A stretch of DNA of 32,994 bases. It comes from Candidatus Fermentibacterota bacterium (GTDB lineage: Bacteria > Fermentibacterota > Fermentibacteria > Fermentibacterales > JCC-6). The DNA is taken from positions 1 to 32,994 of the forward strand of contig JAUVIR010000036.1 in the NCBI GenBank assembly GCA_030592645.1. The letters run 5' to 3'. A model generated the notes under the pieces. The model made no database searches. It had not been told where the DNA came from and saw nothing but the letters and a program-made list of their open reading frames with translations. The stretch's first letter is position 1, and every line of letters begins with the position of its first letter. The translations under genes and the position numbers were made by a program. This document shows, piece after piece, positions 19,724 to 32,914 of this stretch.

Positions 19724-21033
19724 TGCGTCTGGGTGACATCGCTCTCGCTTGCGGCGGCTGGGTTTCCCCCGAAAGCGTGGGCAGGATCGTGAAAAGCGCA
19801 GTGATCGATTCAAGGAATTCCACCAGCGGCTGCCTGTTCTTCGCCCTCGCAGGAGACAGCTCTGATGGACACCAGTACGTTGATAATGTACTCCGGGACA
19901 ATGGTATGGCGGTAGTTTCCCGCGGGAGCAGGCGTGAGGGGGTCATTCTTGTTGAAAGTGTTGAGCAGGCTCTTCTTGATGCCGCAAAATGGAGAAGGAG
20001 CAACATAAGTTCAAGGGTTATAGCGATCACCGGTTCCAGTGGGAAAACGACTACCAGATTGTTTCTCACTGCTGCACTGGAATGTAGATACAGCGTATAC
20101 AGTACCACTGGGAATCTGAATAATCATCTGGGTATGCCTCTGACCATTCTGAACGCTCCGGAAGAAGATCCCGATGTCATCATCCTTGAGCTTGGTATGA
20201 ACCATGCTGGAGAACTGATGATCCTGGGTGATGCAGCTTCTCCAACAGATTGCCTGGTAACCAATATTGGACATGCTCACATGGAGTTCTTCGATACTGT
20301 TGATGATATAGCAAGAGCAAAGGCTGAACTTATCAGGACAACCGCTCCAGGTGGACTATGCGTAATCCCCGTAGATGAGGAGATACTTAAAAGCAGCGCT
20401 CACGCTGCAGGATTGAACATCAGGTATTTCGGTGATGGCGGTGATGCGTGGTTTGAAGAGGAAGACGGTGAATACATCATTTACCCCTATAAGAAAGAGC
20501 TTAGACTTCAGTTCAAGGGAAGTCACAATATGATGAATGCAGTATCGGCGGTACTGATGGCGGGCTCATTGGATGTTCTGATCGAAAGAGCGATCGAAGC
20601 GATCGCTGCCGTTTCTCCAGCAAAGGGCAGAGGCAGGATTGTAAGGGCAGGAGGGATCACCATCCTTGATGAGAGTTACAATGCAAACCCTGATTCCACT
20701 CTGGCATGTCTTGCTGTACTTGAAGGGATGGAGGGAAGCAGAGGGGTAGTTCTGGGTGATATGAGGGAATTGGGAACGGATGCGCCCATCTTCCACAGAG
20801 AGATACTTCAGAAGGCGGACAGCATCGGGCTGGATTTCATGATCCTGACCGGGGAAATGTACGATTCAGCAAAGGCCGCCGTCTCAAGAACAAGGGTATT
20901 TATCGCCGAAGACTGGAAGGAAGCACTGAGGATTCTCATGAATGCAGCTTCATCCGAATGCACTGTTCTTGTAAAAGGGTCAAATTCGCTGCAACTGGGT
21001 GAACTGGTTAGTTCCATGGAGGAGGGTATCTGA
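19720..21033 (+). CDS. murF: UDP-MurNAc-tripeptide:D-alanyl-D-alanine ligase
   Basis: MurF attaches D-Ala-D-Ala to complete the UDP-MurNAc-pentapeptide in the cytoplasm. Of 437 residues, the N-terminal domain has IDSRNSTSGCLFFALAGDSSDGH, the ATP loop is ITGSSGKTTTR (about residues 104-114), followed by LELGMNHAGE and the C-terminal DESYNANPDST typical of MurF. It overlaps murE by 4 bp and ends on the first base of mraY. The D-Ala-D-Ala ligase (ddl) it depends on is not in the window. Confidence 0.96.
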   Translation: MMRLGDIALACGGWVSPESVGRIVKSAVIDSRNSTSGCLFFALAGDSSDGHQYVDNVLRDNGMAVVSRGSRREGVILVESVEQALLDAAKWRRSNISSRVIAITGSSGKTTTRLFLTAALECRYSVYSTTGNLNNHLGMPLTILNAPEEDPDVIILELGMNHAGELMILGDAASPTDCLVTNIGHAHMEFFDTVDDIARAKAELIRTTAPGGLCVIPVDEEILKSSAHAAGLNIRYFGDGGDAWFEEEDGEYIIYPYKKELRLQFKGSHNMMNAVSAVLMAGSLDVLIERAIEAIAAVSPAKGRGRIVRAGGITILDESYNANPDSTLACLAVLEGMEGSRGVVLGDMRELGTDAPIFHREILQKADSIGLDFMILTGEMYDSAKAAVSRTRVFIAEDWKEALRILMNAASSECTVLVKGSNSLQLGELVSSMEEGI

Positions 21034-32474: not shown

Positions 32475-32502
32475 TTGACAGATTCAATTTGAGTCCCATA
32501 AT
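32475..32502 (+). promoter_or_regulatory. promoter of ssrA (tmRNA)
   Basis: A perfect -35 TTGACA (32475-32480), a 16-nt spacer and CATAAT (32497-32502) form a strong sigma70-type promoter. The expected start near 32509 leaves about 15 nt of leader before the mature 5' end at 32525, to be removed by RNase P. The spacer length equals that of the mraZ promoter in this window. Confidence 0.75.
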
Positions 32503-32524: not shown

Positions 32525-32875
32525 GGGGGCGACAGGTATCGACGGGTTCAGAAGCGGTCTGACGGTTGCATGTCGAGGTATCCGCTGCCTCGTTAAACTG
32601 GCGGATAGAAATAACTGCCGCATAAATACGGCACGCTGTTCCGAATAACAGGAGCAGCCGTCCTCCCCGGAATAGCTTTCCTTTCGGGGGCTGGGCGGAA
32701 GAAGGAAAGCTGGCTGTGAAGCCCCGTTCCCAGACGTAAGCAGCGAGATTAAATGGGAGCTAGGTCTGATAAGGCCGACCGGAGCCGAATCAGAATGACA
32801 TTAATCCGGACTAAACATGTAGAGCCGACAGGTCCCTGATCTCGGACGCGGGTTCGAATCCCGCCGCCTCCACCA
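32525..32875 (+). ncRNA. ssrA: tmRNA (SsrA), with an apparently two-codon tag
   Basis: A one-piece tmRNA of about 351 nt. The 5' GGGGGC pairs with 3' GCCTCC before ACCA, with the G3-U wobble that marks alanine charging. The T arm is GCGGG-TTCGAAT-CCCGC, and the conserved ATCGACGGGTTC start is present. Pseudoknot 1 is complete: CGAGG/CCTCG (32574-32578 with 32588-32592) and TATCCGC/GCGGATA (32579-32585 with 32601-32607). The resume motif ATAACT (32611-32616) precedes GCC GCA TAA (32617-32625), so the tag reads Ala-Ala-stop. TGCCG/CGGCA (32616-32620 with 32629-32633) forms the hairpin that holds the stop codon in its loop. The coordinates assume encoded CCA. The RNA itself is secure; the tag reading is discussed as a finding. 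Confidence 0.95.
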
Positions 32876-32914
32876 TGAAAGCGAACACCCCCGAATGGGG
32901 GTTTTGCTTTCATA
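32876..32914 (+). terminator. intrinsic terminator of ssrA
   Basis: The inner stem CCCCC (32888-32892) with GGGGG (32897-32901) around GAAT is followed by TTTT. An outer stem, ATGAAAGC (from 32875) with GCTTTCAT (32906-32913), extends the hairpin on both sides. It starts at the very last base of the tmRNA. The inner hairpin plus U run is the likely terminator, and the outer arms may help 3' processing. Confidence 0.8.

Follow-up and report, generated by a model that had tools for sequence, protein, structure and literature searches.

In the phylum Fermentibacterota, the tag reading frame of tmRNA consists of two alanine codons followed by a stop codon, and this frame, in the form GCC-GCN-TAA, occupies the resume site of all 35 full tmRNA loci that we detected in the phylum. 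In the window, the stretch of 32,994 nucleotides analyzed here, which is a whole contig (JAUVIR010000036.1) of genome G000 (2.58 Mb, 73 contigs, estimated 92.9% complete), an intact one-piece tmRNA gene (ssrA), including the CCA end, is located at positions 32525-32875 on the forward strand. It matches the Rfam covariance model RF00023 over its complete length (model positions 1-374) with a score of 167.5 bits (E-value 1.1e-66; gathering cut-off 47), and is the sole match above the cut-off in G000, where six further matches of 76-93 nt fall below it. The resume codon of the model aligns with GCC at 32617-32619, which is followed by GCA (32620-32622) and TAA (32623-32625). The two-alanine tag is already known: in 2025, Nawrocki, Petrov and Williams reported 25 tags of just two residues, Ala-Ala, which they called “especially common among the Fermentibacterota” (PMC11915505; the only paper that our literature searches on tmRNA in this phylum brought up), and the window tmRNA, with its Ala-Ala-stop frame and its host from the same phylum, joins Fermentibacter__daniensis.1 and its kin from that report. 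The tag section of that paper presents these tags without structure, conservation or mechanism; beyond that section, the present analysis adds the occurrence of the trait in all tmRNAs detected across the phylum, the geometry of the early stop with helix 5 kept, and a survey of partner genes. The frame, the structure and the Ala-Ala-stop reading given in the preliminary description of this DNA stand; the tag is no oddity of a single genome, being a phylum-wide trait that is already in print.

The remaining parts of the gene are in order, and the landmarks by which the resume codon had originally been placed at 32617 all hold on re-reading, in agreement with the covariance model. The conserved CCTCG (32588-32592) is 24 nt from GCC; the arms of pseudoknot 1 (32579-32607), TATCCGC at 32579-32585 and GCGGATA at 32601-32607, are complementary over 7 bases and end 9 nt before GCC, the distance from pseudoknot 1 to the resume codon in E. 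coli tmRNA being 11 nt (PMC2481249). The resume codon is immediately preceded by the frame-setting stretch ATAACT (32611-32616), in which the A residues at -6, -4 and -3 are conserved without exception in the 33 unique genes; the E. coli counterpart of the A at -4 is A86, a frame determinant, with the frame set four bases downstream (PMC2481249). The acceptor stem carries the alanine identity pair G3-U (32527/32869). As described previously, the gene is flanked by a promoter-like site, TTGACA-16-CATAAT (32475-32502, forward strand), which agrees with the consensus at 11 of 12 positions and is weak on its own because one such site was found against 0.5 expected, and by a terminator-like stem with a T-rich tail (32887-32902, forward strand). 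At the other end of the window, a tRNA gene on the reverse strand (positions 1-62; RF00005, 42.6 bits; anticodon GTG, His, by eye) is cut by the contig start.

The 35 full tmRNA loci above the cut-off come from 34 of the 42 genomes of the phylum, and their uniform GCC-GCN-TAA argues against both a sequencing indel and coincidence; relatives carrying a normal tag at the same site, which the preliminary description had named as evidence that would overturn its reading, were not seen among them. Of the 24 genomes with a completeness of 90% or more and a contamination of 5% or less, 23 have a tmRNA, the exception being G023, with a tRNA-sized match only. Altogether, eight of the 42 genomes, most of them incomplete, yielded no tmRNA above the cut-off (G002, G009, G014, G015, G023, G024, G029 and G051); G024 is the only representative of family f2, so that the 35 of 35 count covers the phylum except for this branch. 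Genome G008 has two full tmRNAs on two contigs, and the 110-nt segment of the second is identical to that of L031 from G017; the second copy may be bin contamination.

We counted the changes in each column over 33 unique full-length genes on a tree built without the tag region. The columns of GCC, the first two bases of GCN, and TAA show zero changes; the wobble base of codon 2 changed 4 times (A, G, C), always encoding alanine, the two bases after TAA changed 7 and 4 times, and a column in the loop of helix 5 changed 10 times. A zero in a single column is common, given that the baseline over 345 columns is a mean of 2.1 changes with 35% of the columns unchanged; eight unchanged columns that surround a freely varying wobble base and adjoin rapidly changing loop positions form a pattern that suggests coding constraint. 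All but one of these genes come from the covariance-model search, the 33rd (L067) being from a pattern scan, and the 32 alone are equally invariant.

The pattern scan of genome contigs yielded 39 stretches. The titles of 33 of them name Fermentibacteria, Fermentibacteraceae, Aegiribacteria, Sabulitectum, Fermentibacter or Hyd24-12 (an older name); NCBI taxonomy places the phylum within the FCB group. Named carriers include Candidatus Fermentibacteria, Aegiribacteria, Sabulitectum and Fermentibacter daniensis, and the loci titled Aegiribacteria are identical in the tag region to loci from the genus of the window. Because the motif is present in these 33 matches by construction (33/33), they were left out of the conservation evidence. 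The scan pattern requires Ala-Ala-TAA together with strict anchors, which 1 of 9 outgroup loci outside the phylum carries, compared to 20 of 21 loci belonging to the order of G052; hence, its counts pertain to this form of the tag, being blind to other two-codon tags and no measure of absence elsewhere. In viral contigs, the same pattern with the strict anchors gave no matches. The other six stretches comprise five without a tmRNA match (L055, L056, L063, L074 and L076) and one other tmRNA, L071. The latter (also L154; G052:C2:6709-7050, reverse strand) is a second tmRNA, with GCA GCG TAA, again Ala-Ala-stop, in a genome outside the 42, the other tmRNA of which (L128) has the normal tag ANNDFALAA. 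The 49-kb contig of L071 additionally contains two tmRNA matches, each 112-113 nt long (C2:12849-12960 and 19939-20051), and L071 is perhaps a mobile-element copy or part of a misbinned contig.

The stop codon lies in the loop of a hairpin at 32616-32633, as noted previously, with a 5-bp stem formed by TGCCG (32616-32620) and CGGCA (32629-32633). The segment 32608-32660 has a folding energy of -21.3 kcal/mol (z -5.8; none of 200 shuffles as stable), a value that includes helix 5. In all 34 unique tag-region segments (one of which, L054, comes from the pattern scan only), the stop codon is unpaired, and the GCC-G part of the 5' arm is invariant. Codon 1 is fully paired in the 21 segments with the CGGCA arm; the other 13 have a GCGACA arm and a short or mismatched stem with identical codons, and the middle C of codon 1 is kept there although it is opposite an A. 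Pairing alone thus offers no explanation for the conservation in these 13 segments, and the hairpin was rejected as its sole cause. In E. coli tmRNA, a helix around the resume codon has been suggested to block function if the upstream element is buried (PMC2481249); the stem of the window-type hairpin starts no earlier than position -1, and the A at -4 stays free.

Helix 5 (32635-32658 in the window, with the loop GAATAACA) begins 18 nt after the first base of the resume codon. Across the 34 unique segments, a simple stem search has its 5' arm start between +18 and +20 in 33, and in the remaining one, L021, RNAfold draws a stem at that place. In the outgroup loci L008, L009, L010 and L011, the best stems include one that starts at +17 to +21, with a loop that holds or adjoins the tag stop, and in the other four of the eight outgroups (L013, L018, L033 and L128), the same search recognized no helix 5 stem. 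Helix 5 being kept in place, room for some 10 tag residues appears to remain, and the tag would have been cut short by an early stop rather than by a deletion within the mRNA-like part. An in-frame stop is found in the loop of helix 5 in 10 of the 34 segments, consistent with a remnant of the old frame.

ARAGORN either overlooks these tmRNA genes or assigns them a different tag. On 16 Fermentibacterota loci, it reported no gene in 7 (L015, L030, L032, L034, L036, L037 and L046, all matched by the Rfam model) and a tag in 9, none of them Ala-Ala and most in disagreement with each other; of the tags that it gave for eight outgroup tmRNAs, seven have Ala-Ala at the end (LAA, VAA, IAA) and the eighth has FA. 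For the window and for L012, it proposes AASLNWRIEITAA followed by a stop, which could be taken to indicate that the true frame lies elsewhere. This is highly improbable because the proposed frame starts at 32584, runs before and through CCTCG, and recurs only in these two of the 16 loci, whereas GCC is the triplet that the Rfam model matches to its resume codon. A second frame, which ends at TAA 32646-32648 and was raised in the preliminary description as a potential competitor, fares no better: a stop at this position is found in 8 of the 34 unique segments compared to 34 of 34 for Ala-Ala-stop. We assign a similarly negligible probability to readthrough of TAA that would extend the tag along the old frame, a scenario suggested by the placement of helix 5 where a tag of some 10 codons would end: the next in-frame stop falls in the helix 5 loop only in the 10 segments mentioned above, and the region after TAA varies in both length and sequence. 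Decay of the gene, for which the unusual frame might be taken as a sign and of which L071, a second copy found in a different lineage, may be an instance, is equally hard to credit given the full covariance-model match, the key columns unchanged over 33 genes, and an SmpB that is open and full length. Conservation among the relatives and the comparison of frames led us to reject alternative frames, readthrough, a sequencing indel and a pseudogene.

Of the partners named in the preliminary description, smpB, clpX and RqcH-like genes are present in the phylum; sspB was not found, nor was rqcH in the genome of the window. SmpB was identified in 38 of the 42 genomes and, in G000, is encoded on contig C42 (6e-51, NCBIfam equivalog) as an open, full-length protein with its C-terminal tail. 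ClpX is found in 40 of the 42 genomes, in 39 above the cut-off, and ClpP in 41 at E ≤1e-30, with only 2 of the 42 above the strict NCBIfam cut-off, which 5 of 14 control genomes pass (10 of the 14 giving a match); in G000, clpP adjoins clpX on contig C10. Proteins of the NFACT/RqcH type are present in 40 of the 42 genomes, the two examined carrying both the NFACT_N and NFACT-R domains, with no match in G000 or G047; in G000, the missing gene is perhaps due to an assembly gap. The search for SspB was positive in none of the 42 genomes and in 2 of the 14 controls, E. coli and Caulobacter. The ClpX residues Y153, V154, T199, V202, R228 and H230, located by motif and E. coli spacing, are kept in 7 of 7 sequences (G000 and six relatives). 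These residues of ClpX are widely conserved in bacteria, and therefore, their retention is weak evidence. The same residues have been named as critical for the degron (PMC7652416).

By homology with known systems, alanyl-tmRNA together with SmpB would enter the stalled ribosome, the nascent chain would be moved to the alanine of tmRNA, translation would resume at GCC and add two further alanines, and TAA in the hairpin loop would end translation, releasing a chain with the C-terminus Ala-Ala-Ala-COOH. The terminal Ala-Ala-COO-, which the translation of 32617-32625 preserves, has been called the most important element of the ssrA tag; E. coli ClpXP degrades GFP-YALAA, and does not degrade GFP-LAA (PMC7652416). 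Three residues are thus insufficient on that folded protein, which counts against degradation of folded proteins in our case: the three residues here, one from the charged tmRNA and two coded, fall short of the reach of about five required on a folded substrate. If the importance of Ala-Ala-COO- and the failure of GFP-LAA are taken together, Ala-Ala-Ala can be read as a tag that keeps the recognized head and not the reach, which could come from the unfolded C-terminal region of the truncated protein. We consider it probable that this is a working tmRNA engaged in normal trans-translation, and that Ala-Ala-Ala-COOH is a bare recognition head for ClpXP, with the unfolded chain as the linker; the final steps, recognition by ClpXP and the contribution of the unfolded chain, are less certain than the preceding ones.

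The main rival of this mechanism is rescue without marking, whereby the sole purpose of the frame would be to offer one or two sense codons and a stop for release, and the alanines would be no degron. It is consistent with the fate of GFP-LAA, with the observation that the function of the tag peptide was not critical in a phage assay (PMC2481249), and with the existence of tag-less mitochondrial tmRNAs (PMC11915505). If the frame were no more than a release site, however, codons 1 and 2 would be expected to drift, barring a constraint from the hairpin or the resume site; instead, both codons stay alanine, with zero non-synonymous changes in 33 genes, and the middle C of codon 1 persists even opposite an A. 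We therefore regard rescue without marking as somewhat unlikely, although it is a far more serious contender than the alternative frames, readthrough or decay.

Compared to the standard one-piece tmRNA (RF00023), the window tmRNA is alike in the full model match, the G3-U acceptor pair, pseudoknot 1 and helix 5; it differs in having 2 tag codons instead of about 10 and in the hairpin that encloses the tag frame, where the Rfam model is unpaired. With the tag-less tmRNAs of mitochondria, plastids and Nasuia (PMC11915505), it shares the loss of most of the tag, but the Fermentibacterota keep two alanine codons and a stop, in genomes of 1.4-3.7 Mb, most of which encode SmpB. The alanine tails added by RqcH likewise give an alanine-only C-terminus to the chain from a stalled ribosome, and are read by ClpXP (PMC8012679); the tail discussed here would differ in being templated by tmRNA and fixed at a length of three. 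The parallel is plausible, and under the favored mechanism, the tails made by RqcH would be delivered to the same receptor, although this step, too, is less certain. More tentatively, and with less confidence than in the mechanism itself, we suggest that the tag in this phylum has been reduced to a templated alanine tail, such that trans-translation and RqcH tailing share an all-alanine ClpXP signal, a minimal degron without an adaptor site (SspB was not found), for which the unfolded nascent chain supplies the length.

Whatever the fate of the tagged products, the Ala-Ala end is the part of the ssrA tag that is kept when nearly all else is lost. Should these products still undergo degradation, the remainder of the tag would be dispensable in the Fermentibacterota lineage; otherwise, the main service of trans-translation in this lineage would be the freeing of ribosomes.
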